Assembly (NCBI RefSeq): GCF_000970285.1 | Contig: NZ_CP009516.1 | Location: 1,281,036-1,345,035 of the forward strand | Origin: Methanosarcina horonobensis HB-1 = JCM 15518 | Lineage (GTDB): Archaea; Halobacteriota; Methanosarcinia; Methanosarcinales; Methanosarcinaceae | Direction of reading: 5' to 3' | DNA length: 64,000 nucleotides | Part shown: positions 39,895 to 49,567 of the stretch, one piece after another | How the letters are laid out: each line of letters opens with the position of its first letter | Numbering within the stretch: the first letter of the stretch is position 1 | The notes under the pieces: model-generated | Told to the model about the DNA's origin: nothing | The model's input: the letters and a program-made list of their open reading frames with translations, nothing else | Database searches by the model: none | Program-made: the position numbers and the translations under genes

Positions 39895-39898
39895 GACT

Positions 39899-39934
39899 GG
39901 AACGCTTCAGAGCGTCCCATTTTACAAATTTTTT
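39899..39934 (+). terminator. Hairpin-plus-T terminator after the surface protein gene
   Basis: GGAACGCT and AGCGTCCC form an 8-bp stem with one mismatch and a TCAG loop (39899-39918). ATTTTACAAATTTTTT follows directly. Confidence 0.6.
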
Positions 39935-40355
39935 GAGTAAATGTGTATATCTTCACGCCAGCCAGTAAATCGGTTTTTAATCCAAAGTCAATATAAATGC
40001 TCACGTGAGTTTATCTGGCAAATGATATAAAAGAAAGAGAACTTAAAAAAGAGATCAAAAACGACTCTTTTTGTAAGTGTTAAGTTTTATTCGGTTTTTA
40101 CCTTTACAAGTGTGAAAAGTTCTTTTTCTTTCCTTTTACGATTCTGGCTTTTTTCTTTTTTTGCCTTAAAGATCTCTCCTTAATCGAATGTCATAAGGAT
40201 CAATTTCCATGGCAAATAATGGCCTTAATGGTCAATTCAGAAGCTGGGATTAAAGGAAATAAAACTTAAGGTTTAGATCGGCCTGTAGAAAATAGTTTTA
40301 AAAAAGACATTGATCTGAAAAAATTGGATAATTCATAAATGTTAATTACTTTAAA
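39935..40355. other. Intergenic region, nothing recognised
   Basis: AT-rich sequence with one 10-bp palindrome CTCACGTGAG at 40000-40009. No ORF or RNA is identified. Confidence 0.5.
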
Positions 40356-40427
40356 TGGACCGGTCGGGAATTGAACCCGAGGCCTCTACCATGCCAAGGT
40401 AGCGATCTTCCCCTGATCTACCGGCCC
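40356..40427 (-). tRNA. tRNA-Ala (GGC)
   Basis: The minus strand folds as a 72-nt tRNA. The acceptor stem is GGGCCGG/CCGGTCC, the anticodon stem is CTACC/GGTAG with loop TTGGCAT (anticodon GGC), and the T arm is CTCGGGTTCAATTCCCGA with a shifted pairing GGG/CCC. The discriminator is A and CCA is not encoded. Confidence 0.93.
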
Positions 40428-40653
40428 ATGTTATGTTTTGCTTTGTCAGCACTCCTTCATACACTCAGTATCGTATATAAAACTGTCGCCATAAAGGCCC
40501 AGCTTCCTGTAAATAAAATTTAGAGTCTTGGAAATCCAGAATATTCGAGCAAAAGTTATAAGTAGTAAATCGAGTATTAGAAGTGTTGTCGGATTGGGAT
40601 GCTTTCCCTAAAAAAGCCTTTCAACTCTGATAATTTGAAAAAACCTGATATCT

Positions 40654-40730
40654 GGGCCCGTAGCTTAGCCTGGTGGAGCGCACGGCTGATAACCGTGAGG
40701 TCCTGCGTTCGAATCGCAGCGGGCCCACCA
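40654..40730 (+). tRNA. tRNA-Ile (GAT), copy 1, CCA encoded
   Basis: The acceptor stem is GGGCCCG/CGGGCCC, the D arm GCTTAGCCTGGTGGAGC, the anticodon stem CACGG/CCGTG with loop CTGATAA (anticodon GAT), and the T arm TGCGTTCGAATCGCA. The discriminator A is followed by genomic CCA at 40728-40730. The second copy lacks this CCA. Confidence 0.95.
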
Positions 40731-40792
40731 CAATTCAATAATCTCTTTTCGGAGAATTTTCAGGTTTTCTAAACTTTATCTGTATTCACTTC

Positions 40793-40866
40793 GGGCCCGT
40801 AGCTTAGCCTGGTGGAGCGCACGGCTGATAACCGTGAGGTCCTGCGTTCGAATCGCAGCGGGCCCA
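40793..40866 (+). tRNA. tRNA-Ile (GAT), copy 2, CCA not encoded
   Basis: Identical in its 74 nt to copy 1 but followed by TATA instead of CCA. The copies are 62 nt apart. Upstream sequences differ, so the duplication is old or limited to the tRNA by gene conversion. Confidence 0.95.
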
Positions 40867-41398
40867 TATACTTTTCTTATTTCTGTTGAACTTCACCTTC
40901 TTTTTGTTTGTTTTTCCCTTCCTTCTTTTTACCCCCTATCTTACTTCTTGTTTTTATCCTTATTTCGCATTCTTCTGCACACTTTCTCTGGTGAACGTAT
41001 CCCAAAATTTCTTTTTTCTGGTAGTTAATGGATTTCAGGATTGATTTCAGATCAAAGCTTCAATTTATTGTTCAAAATATAAGGCTTAAAAGCGAACTTA
41101 AAATTTCTACAAAGTCCAAGTTTAGAATTTTTGAATAATCTCTCGGGAAATTTGGAGTTTTCCGCAGCTGGAATATAATCCGATATATAAATAAAATTGG
41201 TCTGAATAGTTTATTAAAATAAAACCAATTTAATGTAATATGCATTATTCTTGGGGATTATTGGGGGGCATTATTACTTTCAGTTACAGAGGCTTTTCCT
41301 CGAAGAGAGGGTTTGAATTCAGGTCATCTTACTGTCTGTATGAAGGGCACATTTTCTCCAATTTTAGTGCAGTAGATGCAGGTAAAGGAGGTATTTAA
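40867..41398. other. Intergenic region upstream of the subtilisin gene
   Basis: T-rich at first (40875-40960, a probable terminator zone for the tRNA) and then AT-rich with TATA-like TATATAAATAA near 41183. No gene is recognised. Confidence 0.5.
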
Positions 41399-42667
41399 TT
41401 GATAGAAGAAAACCTGGACGGTAAGAAACGATATATTGTTATTTTCAAGAATAAGAATGAAAGAAAGGATAAAGAAAAAGACAAGACAGAGATCCTTCAG
41501 CAGAGTGTGGGTCCACGGTTGCATTTTATAGATGTTGGCGTAAAAACAGCGGGTTTTGCCCCTCCTGATGATCCATATGGTCTGGTAGCTCTTGATATTA
41601 ATGATTTTGAGTTTCCCATGGTATTTGCTGCTCTTAGCGAAGAAGAAGTCAATGCGTTGAAGAAGGATCCTAATGTTGCTTTAGTAGAGCCAGACGGGAA
41701 ATTCTATGCTCAGGGACTCTCTCCTTACTGGCTGCCTTCTGAGGGGAATTTTTTCAGGGGCAGTGAGCTGCTGCCAGACACTCAAACAGTAATTTCAAAT
41801 GGGGTGTCAGCTCAGGCAGATTCAATTCCCTGGGGAGTTTCTAATATAAAGGCGCCAATGTGCTGGGAAGCAACCATGGGTAAAGGCATCCATGTAGCTG
41901 TCCTGGATACGGGAATCTGGCCTCATGAAGATCTTAAGGGAAATCTTCTTGGAGGGATCAGTTTTGTGCCAGGAGAAAGCTGGGTTGACGAAAACGGTCA
42001 TGGAACTCATGTTGCTGGAACAATAGCTGCAAAGCTCAACGGTTCTGGTGTTGTTGGAGTGGCACCCTCAGCATATCTATATGGAATAAAAGTCCTCGGT
42101 AACGACGGTTCAGGTAACTGGAGCTGGCTCATGAGCGGTCTGTACTGGATGAGAAAATACCATGGCTGTACATTTGATATTGCAAACTTGAGCCTTGGAG
42201 GTTCAGGTGCTCCCAGTGCACTGGAAACATATATTAATTATGCATCTGAACAAACACTTCTTGTGACCGCAGCTGGCAACTACCCAGCAGATGCACCTGA
42301 TAAGCCGGTAATGTACCCTGCCAAATATGAACGCTGCCTTGCAGTTAGCGCAATCCAGAGCGACAATACCATTGCAAAATTTAGTGGCAGAGGGCCTGAG
42401 GTCGAGTTATGTGCTCCTGGCGTTAATATAGTATCCACTTTGCCAGGCAATAATTACGGCAGTTTGAGTGGCACAAGCATGGCTGCTCCTCATGTGGCAG
42501 GTGCTGCAGCTTTGTGCAGAGGTACTCATAGATCCCTGAAAATGGATAAAATCAGAGAAATACTCGTGAATACCGCCAATAATCTCGGAGTTCCGGGTAA
42601 GGATGACGAATACGGCTATGGTAAAGTCGACTGTAATGGAGCTACATTCCATAAAAGCTGTGGATAA
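41399..42667 (+). CDS. Subtilisin-like serine protease (S8) without signal peptide
   Basis: The 422-residue protein has the full catalytic set: Asp170 in VAVLDTGIWP, His201 in GHGTHVAGT, Asn294 in VTAAGN and Ser360 in GTSMAAPHVAG. Residues 9-105 look like an I9-type propeptide (YIVIFKNKN at its start, DPNVALVEPDGKFYAQ at its end), with a linker of about 40 residues before the catalytic domain at SIPWGVSNIKAP. There is no signal peptide or TM segment, so it should be intracellular or leave by an unusual route. It starts at TTG 41399 behind an excellent SD (AAAGGAGGT). The convergent gene at 42732 encodes a stand-alone protein with a similar propeptide-like end. Confidence 0.93.
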   Translation: MIEENLDGKKRYIVIFKNKNERKDKEKDKTEILQQSVGPRLHFIDVGVKTAGFAPPDDPYGLVALDINDFEFPMVFAALSEEEVNALKKDPNVALVEPDGKFYAQGLSPYWLPSEGNFFRGSELLPDTQTVISNGVSAQADSIPWGVSNIKAPMCWEATMGKGIHVAVLDTGIWPHEDLKGNLLGGISFVPGESWVDENGHGTHVAGTIAAKLNGSGVVGVAPSAYLYGIKVLGNDGSGNWSWLMSGLYWMRKYHGCTFDIANLSLGGSGAPSALETYINYASEQTLLVTAAGNYPADAPDKPVMYPAKYERCLAVSAIQSDNTIAKFSGRGPEVELCAPGVNIVSTLPGNNYGSLSGTSMAAPHVAGAAALCRGTHRSLKMDKIREILVNTANNLGVPGKDDEYGYGKVDCNGATFHKSCG

Positions 42668-42731
42668 ACCGTACCCGATTTGAATTATTCAATTTATTGA
42701 AAAGAGTTGATGGTTTGGTGATTGGTTACAT

Positions 42732-43013
42732 TCATTGAGCATAAACGCCGCTATCATACTCTATTTTTTCTACTTCGGAAATCTCAGCAAGCTCAGAAAT
42801 ATCTTTTACCGGGACAGTTCCTGCAATAATTACAACAGGACCTTCTATCACGGTTTTAACCATGAGACCTTTTTGTGTCATCTCTTTCTCTACTTTTCCA
42901 ATATTAGCATCTTTTTTCAAGCTAATTACTACATCAACATTTTCCTTAGGTGACATTTTCAGCTTATTTTCGACTATTAAGATCAGTTCTGAAGAAAGTT
43001 TTGATATCGACAT
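42732..43013 (-). CDS. Stand-alone I9 (subtilisin propeptide)-like protein
   Basis: The 93-residue protein has an alpha/beta pattern like I9 propeptides: VDVVISLKKDANIGKVEKEM (strand-helix), then GLMVKTVIEGPVVIIAGTVP and a last helix-strand VKDISELAEISEVEKIEY. It ends DSGVYAQ, close to the DGKFYAQ at the end of the propeptide part of the neighbouring protease. I9-like proteins encoded alone act as protease inhibitors or folding chaperones. The genes converge with a 64-nt gap. SD GGGGATG precedes ATG 43013. Family membership rests on pattern similarity and not on a search. Confidence 0.7.
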   Translation of the reverse strand: MSISKLSSELILIVENKLKMSPKENVDVVISLKKDANIGKVEKEMTQKGLMVKTVIEGPVVIIAGTVPVKDISELAEISEVEKIEYDSGVYAQ

Positions 43014-43304: not shown

Positions 43305-43718
43305 TCAGGCAATGTGCTTCAGGCGTTCTATGTTCCTCAGCACAAGTCTGCTTTCGGCTATGATTTCTTCTTCGATCTTGCTGACTATGCGGTCCATAGG
43401 GACTGTCAATCTGTACAGCTTGATCGGTCTGCCCTTACCTTTTGATTTCTTTTCTTCCCGGATGTCAATCCAGTTGTTTTCGCGGAGGTACCGCATTGCA
43501 ACACTGACTTCCGGCTGTCTCAGGCCAGATACCATTTCTATACTCTGGGAAGAGATTTCCCTTCCTTTTGCAAGACAGGCGAGGGTAAGAGCAATCGGCC
43601 TGCTGACATTGATCTTTCTAAACAATTCTATCATTTCGTATTCGCTTGATCCCATAGATATGGGAGTCTCACTCATCATGTCAGTAGTTTCTATAGCTAA
43701 ACCACTTTCATCTACCAT
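43305..43718 (-). CDS. Winged-helix transcriptional regulator (paralog A)
   Basis: A 137-residue ArsR-like winged-helix protein. RPIALTLACLAKGREISSQS and VSGLRQPEVSVAMRYLRENN are the HTH, with WIDIREEKKSKGKGRPIKLY as a basic wing. A C-terminal helix (MDRIVSKIEEEIIAESRLVL) probably dimerises. There is no effector domain and only one Cys. It shares most of its HTH and tail with the gene at 45411-45869. The start has a perfect GGTGAT 5 nt upstream. The target genes are unknown. Confidence 0.85.
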   Translation of the reverse strand: MVDESGLAIETTDMMSETPISMGSSEYEMIELFRKINVSRPIALTLACLAKGREISSQSIEMVSGLRQPEVSVAMRYLRENNWIDIREEKKSKGKGRPIKLYRLTVPMDRIVSKIEEEIIAESRLVLRNIERLKHIA

Positions 43719-45410: not shown

Positions 45411-45869
45411 TCAGGACAGATTCTTGAGACGTTCTATGTTCTGGAGAATAGTCTTGCTCTCAGCGATGACGTTTTCTTCTATTGTATTAATAATAGTCTC
45501 CATCTGGACTGTCAGCTTGTAGAGCTTTACCGGCCTGCCTTTGCCATGATTTTTCTTTTCTTCCCTCATATTTACCCAGTCGTTTTCACGAAGGTAGCGC
45601 ATTGCAATGCTGACTTCCGGCTGCCTCAGGCCTGAAACCATTTCTATACACTGGGAAGAAATCTCTTCTCCTTTTGAGAGGCATGCAAGGGTCAAAGCTA
45701 CAGGTCTGTTTATATTGAGCCTCCTTAAAAGCTCGACCATTTCGTACTCTACCTCTCCCATTTTAAAATTATTATCTTCTGTTATCAGTCCATTATCTGC
45801 CACAACTATCATCTGCCGTTTATACCGGTAATATGCCCAGACTCGGTTCCGGTACTCTATTTTATCCAA
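45411..45869 (-). CDS. Winged-helix transcriptional regulator (paralog B)
   Basis: The 152-residue paralog of the gene at 43305 has the same HTH (RPVALTLACLSKGEEISSQC, VSGLRQPEVSIAMRYLREND), basic wing (MREEKKNHGKGRPVKLYKLT) and C-terminal helix ending NIERLKNLS. The N-terminus differs and includes a basic aromatic stretch (RNRVWAYYRYKRQM) if the start at 45869 is right. An ATG at 45812 would give a length closer to paralog A. The pair probably arose by duplication, with the TnpB element entering between them. Confidence 0.83.
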   Translation of the reverse strand: MDKIEYRNRVWAYYRYKRQMIVVADNGLITEDNNFKMGEVEYEMVELLRRLNINRPVALTLACLSKGEEISSQCIEMVSGLRQPEVSIAMRYLRENDWVNMREEKKNHGKGRPVKLYKLTVQMETIINTIEENVIAESKTILQNIERLKNLS

Positions 45870-46442: not shown

Positions 46443-48860
46443 ATGACTGATGGGAAGACTGAAGGGCTGGACAAAGCTGCTGTATTTATCTGCCACTGCA
46501 GCGGGAACATCTCCGAACATGTTGATATCGATACTGTGAAAAAGACCCTTAAGGCAGGAGGGGTCTCGGTTTTTGATTATGAGTACCTGTGTTCAAGCCA
46601 GGGGCAGGCCCTGATCAAGAATAAAATTCTGGAAGGGCATTTGGACAGGATAGTAATAGGTTCGTGTACTCCTTCCAAGCACGGTACTCTTTTTAAAAAG
46701 TGCATACAGGAAACCGGACTAAACAGAGCCGGGCTTGAGATTGCAAACCTGAGGGAACAATGCGCCTGGGTGCACCCTGACAGATCAGGGGCTACGGACA
46801 AAGCCCTTTCTCTTCTTAAAGCCAAGCTGAAACGCCTGGAAAACATCGAGCCGCTTGAAGAAATAAAAGTGGATATTACTCAGCAGGCCCTTGTGATAGG
46901 CGGCGGGATTGCAGGAATCACAGCTGCACTGAATCTTGCAGATAACGGGATTTCCACCTTCCTTGTCGAGAAGGATTCAAGCATAGGCGGGCAGATGGCA
47001 AAAATAGGGAAAATCTTTTCTCCTGATAAACTTGCGGAGGAGTGTGCAATGTGCTCTCTCAGCCCTCTCATGAATGAGGTTGCAGCCCACCCTAAAATCA
47101 CACTTTTGACCTGGACCGAAGTAGAAAACCTCAGCGGGAGTGCAGGAAATTTTACGGTCAGGCTAAAAAAGAAACCGAGATATGTAAAAGATAACTGTAC
47201 CGCATGCGGAAGGTGCAGCCGGGTCTGTCCTGTCCTGGTTGAAGACGAGTTCAACTGCGGCTATATGGATAAAAAGGCAATTTCTCTACGCTTCTCTCAG
47301 TCAGTACCCAAGGTTTTCTGTATCGATTCCGATTACTGCCTGCAATTAAACGGGGAAACCTGCGGAAAATGTGCGTCCACCTGCAAAAACGGGGCGATCG
47401 ATTTCTCTCAGAAGGAAGAGACAATCGAGCTTAATGTAGGTGCAGTTATCGTTGCCACGGGCTTTGAGGAGTATGACGTATCTCAGAAACCTCAGTATGG
47501 ATATGGGATTTTTGAAAATGTGCTTACCCAGATGGAACTTGCAAGAGTCCTGGGCATTAATGGTCCTACAAAAGGAGAACTTCTCAGGATATCGGATTTC
47601 AGCAAAGCTTCCAGCGACCCTGCCCCTGCAACCTGTGATTCAAGGTGCGAAAATTCATCTAATAATTCCTCCGGTGCTGAAACGCCAAAAAGGATAGTCA
47701 TGATCCAGTGTGTTGGTTCAAGAGACGAAAAGGAAGGAGGGAACCGCTACTGTTCGAGGTACTGTTGCATGGCGGCCCTGAAGCATGCAAGCCTGATTAA
47801 GAAAAGGTATCCGGAAACCGAAATTACGATCTGCTATATTGACGTGAGGGCTTTTGGCTTTTACGAAAACTACTATCGTGCGGTTCAGGAAACAGGAGTT
47901 AACTTTGTAAGGGGAAGGCCTGCCGAAGTTATTGAAAAACCGGATAAAAGCCTTGTTGTAAGGGTTGAAGACACCCTTGACCAGAAAATGAGAGAACTTC
48001 CTGCTGACCTGGTTGTACTTTCCGCAGCCATGATTCCCTCCCCGGGGACAAAGAGAATTGCCAGTGTACTGAACCTGAGCCAGGATGAAAACGGGTTTAT
48101 AAAGGAGAGGCATTCCAAGTTGAAGCCTGTTGACAGTTCCCTTGATGGTATCTTTGTCTGCGGCACTGCCCAGAGTCCTAAAGATGTTACTGACACGATT
48201 GCCCAGGCAGGACTTGCAGCTGTAAGGGCAAGGGCTTTCATTACGGACAGTCCGAAAGCTCTGGATAACGAGATTGTAGCCATCAACCAGTTGCTCTGTA
48301 CACGGTGCGAAGAATGTCTTAAATGTCCCTTCGACGCCCTTTCCATAAACGAGAGTGGAAGGGTCGTTCTTGATCCTCTAATCTGCACGGGCTGCGGATA
48401 CTGTACCGAGCTCTGCAAGGAAGGAGCTGTCCAGGTTGCAGGCTTTACGAAACCCCAGATAAAGGCCGAGATGGAAGGCGTGCTTGAAGAAGGGGATGTG
48501 CTTGGCTTTGTAAACAGCGGAATAGCCTCCCTTACCTGTGACAATATCGGTAATAGTGTGCTCACATATCCTTCAAATGTTAAACTGATCAGAGTCCCTA
48601 CCAGTCTCGTAGTTGATAAAGATCTGGTGCTGCATGCATTCAGGTATGGGGCGTCTTCTGTCCTGTTTGTAGAAGACCCGCCAGAAAGTCCGAGAGCTGA
48701 AGTGATATATCCTCTTACTGTGATGCACTTTGAAAAACTTAAAGAAGAACTTGGAGACTTAGGAAGCCGACTTCATTTCAAAAAAGCCTATGTTCCGAAC
48801 ACCAAAGGGCTTGCAGGAACTTTTACCAGCCTTGCCCGGGAAGGAGAGATGATAAAATGA
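46443..48860 (+). CDS. hdrA: Heterodisulfide reductase subunit A (HdrA2-type) with MvhD-like C-terminus
   Basis: The 805-residue cytoplasmic flavoprotein is the electron-bifurcating subunit of soluble Hdr. An N-terminal FeS domain (ICHCSGNISEHVDI, GSCTPSKHG) precedes the FAD-binding QALVIGGGIAGITAALNLAD near residue 147. Cys201 lies in CAMCSLSPLMNEV. Inserted ferredoxin motifs (CTACGRCSRVCP at 252, CGKCASTCKNG) and C-terminal ones (CTRCEECLKCP from 619, CTGCGYCTELC from 648) follow. From about residue 672 an MvhD-like domain is fused, but its cluster cysteines are mostly missing. In M. acetivorans this type links F420H2, ferredoxin and CoM-S-S-CoB. It overlaps hdrC by 4 nt. Confidence 0.93.
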   Translation: MTDGKTEGLDKAAVFICHCSGNISEHVDIDTVKKTLKAGGVSVFDYEYLCSSQGQALIKNKILEGHLDRIVIGSCTPSKHGTLFKKCIQETGLNRAGLEIANLREQCAWVHPDRSGATDKALSLLKAKLKRLENIEPLEEIKVDITQQALVIGGGIAGITAALNLADNGISTFLVEKDSSIGGQMAKIGKIFSPDKLAEECAMCSLSPLMNEVAAHPKITLLTWTEVENLSGSAGNFTVRLKKKPRYVKDNCTACGRCSRVCPVLVEDEFNCGYMDKKAISLRFSQSVPKVFCIDSDYCLQLNGETCGKCASTCKNGAIDFSQKEETIELNVGAVIVATGFEEYDVSQKPQYGYGIFENVLTQMELARVLGINGPTKGELLRISDFSKASSDPAPATCDSRCENSSNNSSGAETPKRIVMIQCVGSRDEKEGGNRYCSRYCCMAALKHASLIKKRYPETEITICYIDVRAFGFYENYYRAVQETGVNFVRGRPAEVIEKPDKSLVVRVEDTLDQKMRELPADLVVLSAAMIPSPGTKRIASVLNLSQDENGFIKERHSKLKPVDSSLDGIFVCGTAQSPKDVTDTIAQAGLAAVRARAFITDSPKALDNEIVAINQLLCTRCEECLKCPFDALSINESGRVVLDPLICTGCGYCTELCKEGAVQVAGFTKPQIKAEMEGVLEEGDVLGFVNSGIASLTCDNIGNSVLTYPSNVKLIRVPTSLVVDKDLVLHAFRYGASSVLFVEDPPESPRAEVIYPLTVMHFEKLKEELGDLGSRLHFKKAYVPNTKGLAGTFTSLAREGEMIK

Positions 48861-49567
48861 TGTCATATGTAAACGAATACGATGCCCCGGAGTGTAAAAC
48901 TCTTGCAGAAACCGCAAAAAAAAGTATCCGAACCCCTGAATCTCTGGGACTGGACCGCTGTATCCAGTGCGGAGCCTGCACTGCTTCCTGTCCTGCAGCC
49001 CGGTTTACGGATTACAGTCCGAGGCAAATCGTAAAAAAAGTGCTGGAAAATGACCGCAGTGTTCTTGAATCAGAAATGATCTGGTCCTGCTTCTACTGCT
49101 ATTCCTGCAATGTCCGCTGTCCCAGGAATAACAGTCCTGTAACAATCGTGCAGGTACTCCGGCAAATGGCTATCAACGAAGGAAATGGCATTGAGAAGCT
49201 TGCTTATTTCCTCGAGATTGGAGAATACCTTGCAGAAAACGGGGCGAGCAAGGTTCCCGGTGCCGGTATTAAGAATATGGAAAAAGATCTTGGGGAGCGC
49301 TGGATCGGGATTAAGAATAATCTGGAACCAATCCGTTCCGAGCTTGGGCTCAGCTCCAGGGATATCAGGAATACCCATGGAGAGGTTCAGGCTATTCTTG
49401 AGAGTACAGGGTATTTTGAAAGAGAAAAATGGATTAAAGCAAAGATACAGGAAAAAAAATTTCGCGGGTTCCTGAAGACAGACTGCACTGAAAACGAAAA
49501 TAACAGCGGAGACTTCGGCTTTGAAAGCGATAGAGAGTATACCGGACAGGAAGCTCTTACTGTTTAA
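48857..49567 (+). CDS. hdrC: Heterodisulfide reductase subunit C
   Basis: The 236-residue FeS protein passes electrons from HdrA to HdrB through two [4Fe-4S] clusters. The motifs are CIQCGACTASCP at residue 35 and CFYCYSCNVRCP at residue 78, each closed by the usual Cys-Pro. Length, including a C-terminal extension of about 60 residues with a charged Asn/Glu/Ser-rich end, is longer than in hydrogen-linked HdrC. Its start overlaps the hdrA stop, and its last 47 nt overlap hdrB, so the three are translationally coupled. Confidence 0.93.
   Translation: MMSYVNEYDAPECKTLAETAKKSIRTPESLGLDRCIQCGACTASCPAARFTDYSPRQIVKKVLENDRSVLESEMIWSCFYCYSCNVRCPRNNSPVTIVQVLRQMAINEGNGIEKLAYFLEIGEYLAENGASKVPGAGIKNMEKDLGERWIGIKNNLEPIRSELGLSSRDIRNTHGEVQAILESTGYFEREKWIKAKIQEKKFRGFLKTDCTENENNSGDFGFESDREYTGQEALTV

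Follow-up and report, generated by a model that had tools for sequence, protein, structure and literature searches.

Stand-alone inhibitors with the I9 fold of subtilisin propeptides have been characterized in several organisms, including POIA1 from Pleurotus, yeast proteinase B inhibitor 2, SPI-1 of Arabidopsis, TgMIC5 and SUB1-ProM of Plasmodium, all of them eukaryotic, and SUB1-ProM is encoded beside subtilisin genes (PMC6993865). In such proteins inhibitory potency is determined by the C-terminal tail, which binds like a reaction product (PMC10580911). In addition, the prodomain of CspB, when provided in trans, obstructs the active site, and this block is lost when the P3-P1 residues are missing (PMC3567191). 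In bacteria, the PopC/PopD system of Myxococcus xanthus comprises a subtilisin without signal peptide that is complexed by its partner, whereby secretion is prevented until starvation (PMC6434023).

Herein, a convergent gene pair of Methanosarcina horonobensis (genome size 5.02 Mb) is compared with these systems; positions are those of the window, the whole stretch of 64,000 nucleotides at G000:C1:1281036-1345035 that was analysed. One gene encodes a signal-less subtilisin and the other a protein of 93 residues. The small protein resembles the eukaryotic I9 inhibitors in having a small separate gene, a propeptide fold (here predicted) and a sequence with little or no resemblance to propeptides; it differs from them in being archaeal, in carrying an N-terminal helix like that of the subtilisin Tk-SP and in lying convergent with a signal-less subtilisin gene, and its inhibitor role is a predicted one. 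With PopC/PopD the gene pair shares a signal-less subtilisin accompanied by a partner, a layout similar in kind as judged from the published description; the N-terminal part of PopC has been described as lacking a recognizable domain, whereas that of the window protease is I9-like. The locus may thus represent a known principle in prokaryotic form, the characterized stand-alone cases being so far mostly eukaryotic. A prokaryotic pair of this type was not found described in the open-access literature searched, which is weak evidence of absence. The original prediction had called such a two-gene system little described; this is a fair statement for prokaryotes, although PopC/PopD provides a functional precedent in bacteria, and does not hold for eukaryotes, whose stand-alone I9 inhibitors are well established.

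The protease gene (41399..42667, plus strand) starts with TTG and encodes 422 residues with a complete Peptidase_S8 domain (PF00082, E-value 6.1e-60). Alignment with subtilisin BPN' begins at residue 140 and delimits a catalytic domain (41816..42664) in which the triad D170, H201 and S360 and the oxyanion residue N294 all have their counterparts. A GGAGGT motif lies six bases 5' of the start codon and an in-frame TAA immediately precedes it, so that a longer reading frame, and with it a signal peptide, is impossible. The N-terminus is also hydrophilic, with a hydrophobicity maximum over 15-residue windows of 0.13, compared with 2.2-3.0 at the N-terminus of 12 of the 13 Methanosarcinaceae subtilases compared. 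The protease carries its own I9-type propeptide domain (approximately residues 11-105; 41429..41713), which ends in DGKFYAQ at residues 99-105. Residues 11-102 match PF05922 at 20.7 bits, a marginal score given the cut-off of 21.2, and residues 75-103 are weakly alignable with the BPN' prosegment. A linker of residues 106-139 (41714..41815) connects this domain to the counterpart of the first residue of mature BPN', and processing is possible at Q105|G106 or at Q139|A140. The catalytic residues, the I9-like N-terminal part and the missing signal peptide had all been read from the DNA in the original prediction, and each was borne out by these comparisons.

Unlike the precursor of an extracellular subtilisin, in which a signal peptide stands before the I9 propeptide, the window protease begins directly with its I9-like part. 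The intracellular subtilisins (ISP) of Bacillus are likewise signal-less and possess only a short inhibitory N-terminal extension without an I9 domain. Assignment of the window protease to the ISP type was ruled out by the I9-like domain of about 105 residues and the linker preceding its catalytic domain. Upstream of the protease gene, some 1.5 kb (39895-41398) contain no convincing gene and follow a NosD/PKD surface protein; this gene-poor stretch could be the edge of an acquired segment.

The gene of the small protein (42732..43013, minus strand) is convergent with the protease gene and separated from it by 64 bp (42668..42731), in which no unusual RNA structure was found (z -0.95). Its product has no export signal. 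A search with PF05922, which the original prediction had proposed as a check, gave no match over the cut-off for the 93-residue protein or for ten relatives, and the protein was therefore not filed as a PF05922 member; no other Pfam or PDB sequence match was obtained for it either. Comparison of the profile of the small family with a propeptide profile gave a P value of 0.0086 over the last 32 columns only, in a register that superposes the YAQ tails of the small protein and the protease.

At the level of predicted structure the relationship is considerably clearer. With an input of five sequences, the best AlphaFold model of the small protein reached a pLDDT of 86.2, the other four models scoring 64-72 (one of five above 75). 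This model consists of an N-terminal helix followed by a β-α-β-β-α-β arrangement, in agreement with the alpha/beta pattern that had been proposed from the sequence. In VIA-align its top match is the N-propeptide of Tk-SP from Thermococcus kodakarensis (ProN-Tk-SP, 3afg), with Z 12.3, 1.8 Å and 87 of the 93 residues aligned; in Tk-SP the propeptide belongs to the same chain as the enzyme, whereas the window protein is encoded by a separate gene. The second-best entry scores Z 8.5, nine of the ten entries after the top one are subtilase propeptides or pro-enzymes, and comparison with the chains of BPN', Tk-subtilisin and POIA1 gives Z 7-8.5. Furthermore, subtilisin propeptides and POIA1 were among the best structural matches of a model built from the single sequence. 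The β-α-β-β-α-β ferredoxin-like fold is common and widespread and a match to it alone is unspecific; weight is therefore placed on the drop of nearly four Z units below the top match and on the inclusion of the extra helix. Judged by the predicted structure, the fold of the small protein is the I9 fold of subtilisin propeptides, though it is not demonstrable from the sequence.

The C-terminus of the small protein is exactly DSGVYAQ, D87 to Gln93, as had been noted originally (codons 42735..42755, minus strand). In BPN' the propeptide is cleaved after the sixth residue past the Asp of an E-x-D motif, and the alignments made here are consistent with this register. Applied to the pair, it places P1 at Gln105 in the protease and at Gln93, the final residue, in the small protein, and Tyr-Ala-Gln occupies Asp+4 to Asp+6, or P3-P1, in both DGKFYAQ and DSGVYAQ. 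The tail of the small protein thus stops precisely at P1 (Asp87 + 6 = Gln93), and POIA1, a proven stand-alone inhibitor, ends in IEEDGIVTTQ, likewise at Asp+6 with Gln. Given the composition, the chance of finding YAQ at the last three positions is 6.6e-5, and that of at least three identities among the six tail positions is 2.7e-3; the latter figure is to be read with caution, as the tail of another subtilase, SIVYIT, is also identical to that of the small protein at three of six positions. The tail, although in register with DGKFYAQ in the profile alignment, is the least certain part of the AlphaFold model (pLDDT 54).

Among 21 distinct propeptide tails, Gln at Asp+6 was found in the window protease only and in none of the 20 others. 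This singles out the neighbour among the propeptides examined and makes it highly improbable that the small protein is directed at another subtilase of the same cell, or at those of competitors. Such targets would be offered by the four further S8 matches of the genome, and members of the small-protein family are also present where the S8 genes of the genome sit elsewhere; yet two other full S8 genes encode hydrophobic N-termini and their products are presumably exported, while the small protein carries no export signal.

The strongest new evidence comes from Rhizobium jaguaris. Among 72,556 plasmids searched with tblastn, a single relative including the shared N-terminal part was found, on pRCCGE525a, a conjugative plasmid of this bacterium. 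Its protease (WP_120709339.1) aligns over 97% of the window protease at 45.6% identity (3e-88), has no signal peptide and shares the N-terminal segment RxDKEKDKxEI; the two form one clade (support 98/95) apart from the secreted methanosarcinal subtilases. The adjacent gene, convergent and 81 bp away, encodes a stand-alone I9 protein of 86 residues (WP_162950470.1), which matches PF05922 over the cut-off at 26.3 bits. A like protease with a like partner, placed alike, therefore occurs in two domains of life, the second being represented by one Rhizobium locus. The partners themselves show no detectable sequence homology (profile P 0.0056), and the tail of the Rhizobium protein, DTEANALRKP, extends beyond P1, whereas that of the window protein stops there.

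The pairing of such a protease with a stand-alone I9 neighbour was seen in no other genome. For eight more distantly related subtilases on plasmids, neither annotation nor Pfam revealed an I9 protein next door, and in 393 Halobacteriota genomes no protease relative aligning from the N-terminal part was found. Stand-alone PF05922 genes were not established in these 393 genomes either, the shortest matching frames (127 and 151 residues) lying at contig ends. Searches of the plasmids with the small protein gave no match, and the Rhizobium I9 protein matched only itself. Viral contigs gave no match to an alignment of the two proteases and phage records only distant S8 domains; an anti-phage role of the pair is not favoured, as the matches bearing on it are generic subtilase matches only.

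The distribution of the small protein itself tells a different story from the simple one of a dedicated partner. Its family, with identities of 37-44%, is present in 11 of 112 Methanosarcinaceae genomes, and no convincing member was found elsewhere among the 393 Halobacteriota genomes sampled. Weak matches of the family profile in two of these (G033 and G286) were judged to be due to chance, one being a 172-residue ACT-like protein and the other a long surface-type protein. Of the ten solitary relatives checked, not one lies within about 6 kb of a subtilisin gene; an additional member is a broken fragment. One of the solitary relatives is a 44% identical paralog in the M. horonobensis genome itself. 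This paralog (G000:C1:744341-744604; locus L051, 8324-8614, the other relatives being loci L052-L060) sits between sensor histidine kinases. Nine Methanosarcina relatives end three residues past the Asp, in DHVL, DHAL, DHPL, DRSS or DRRS, and are thus without an active-site arm, while the relative from another genus (G023) has a longer tail, DGKIHALTN. The G023 gene (L172, 6621-7804) adjoins a Peptidase_M23-like gene and a calcineurin-like phosphoesterase gene, and the only S8 match in that genome lies elsewhere, within a frame of 2035 residues.

These results point to a small family (about 90 residues) of solitary I9-fold proteins in Methanosarcina. The original prediction inferred that the small protein is a dedicated inhibitor or trans-acting folding factor protecting the cell from a cytoplasmic protease, and named homologs without a nearby subtilisin as evidence to the contrary. 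Such homologs were found, so that for the family as a whole the claim of a dedicated partner fails and at most the window copy is one; the I9 fold, the in-register tail and the Rhizobium pair speak in favour of this copy. The window copy is alone in the family in both adjoining a subtilisin and ending at P1 with YAQ. It could still be argued that the small protein is one member of a family resident in Methanosarcina and serving another role, that its adjacency to the protease is accidental and that the YAQ match is due to chance. The solitary state of the ten relatives, the absence of the tail in nine of them, the sensor kinases beside the same-genome paralog and the lack of I9 evidence at the sequence level are all in line with this. 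The explanation is nevertheless rather unlikely, as the structural match is specifically to a subtilisin propeptide (Z 12.3, the runner-up scoring 8.5), the only tail in the family that ends at P1 does so with the neighbour's residues, and the two genes are arranged alike in Rhizobium.

Altogether, the gene structure, the protease family, the absent signal peptide, the fold of the predicted model, the tail register and the recurrence in Rhizobium support the reading of the two genes as a protease and trans-inhibitor pair, in which a product-like inhibitor would maintain the latency of a subtilisin that is cytoplasmic or exported by a non-classical route; its probability is estimated at roughly two in three. 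Binding, inhibition, the site of action and the trigger of release are proposed as follows. The subtilisin, made without a signal peptide, would fold with the aid of the I9 domain at its own N-terminus and could process itself. The 93-residue protein, resembling a ready-made cleaved propeptide, would then dock on the same side of the catalytic domain, with its C-terminal GVYAQ laid into the S subsites as a product and Gln93 at P1. In this way the mature enzyme may stay inactive in the cytoplasm, to be released from latency by removal of the inhibitor or by its own exit from the cell.

Alternatively, the small protein could serve mainly as a trans-acting folding factor, that is, a stand-alone intramolecular chaperone for which inhibition would be secondary. 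Propeptides in trans can restore the folding of subtilases, as in the case of CspB (PMC3567191), the small protein shares the propeptide fold, and the protease's own I9 domain stays below the Pfam threshold. The protease, however, already has an I9-like domain in cis, one common to its Rhizobium relative, which leaves a folding role possible but less needed; the known stand-alone I9 proteins are inhibitors, and convergent genes offer no benefit of co-translation. Folding assistance as the main function thus appears improbable.

Returning to the protease and trans-inhibitor pair, the locus looks like a mobile protease-and-brake pair. A more far-reaching scenario, offered as speculation of low probability, is that a mobile module of two genes, protease and inhibitor, passed between the bacterial and archaeal domains, that its inhibitor slot was refilled in the archaeon from the resident tail-less I9-fold family, and that the tail was subsequently adapted to the new protease; such a module may act in a toxin/antitoxin-like manner, with the subtilisin as a latent toxin. 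Occurring both in an archaeon and on a conjugative plasmid of a bacterium, such a prokaryotic pair would provide a simple two-gene system in which to ask how cells keep a broad-specificity protease in their own cytoplasm, and how a propeptide acting in cis turns into an inhibitor acting in trans.

Downstream of the pair, the minus strand encodes two similar putative winged-helix proteins of 137 and 152 residues (43305-43718 and 45411-45869), apparent paralogs with no Pfam family over the cut-off. They are followed at 46443-49567 by heterodisulfide reductase-like genes, the first of which encodes an FlpD domain fused to an HdrA-like protein.
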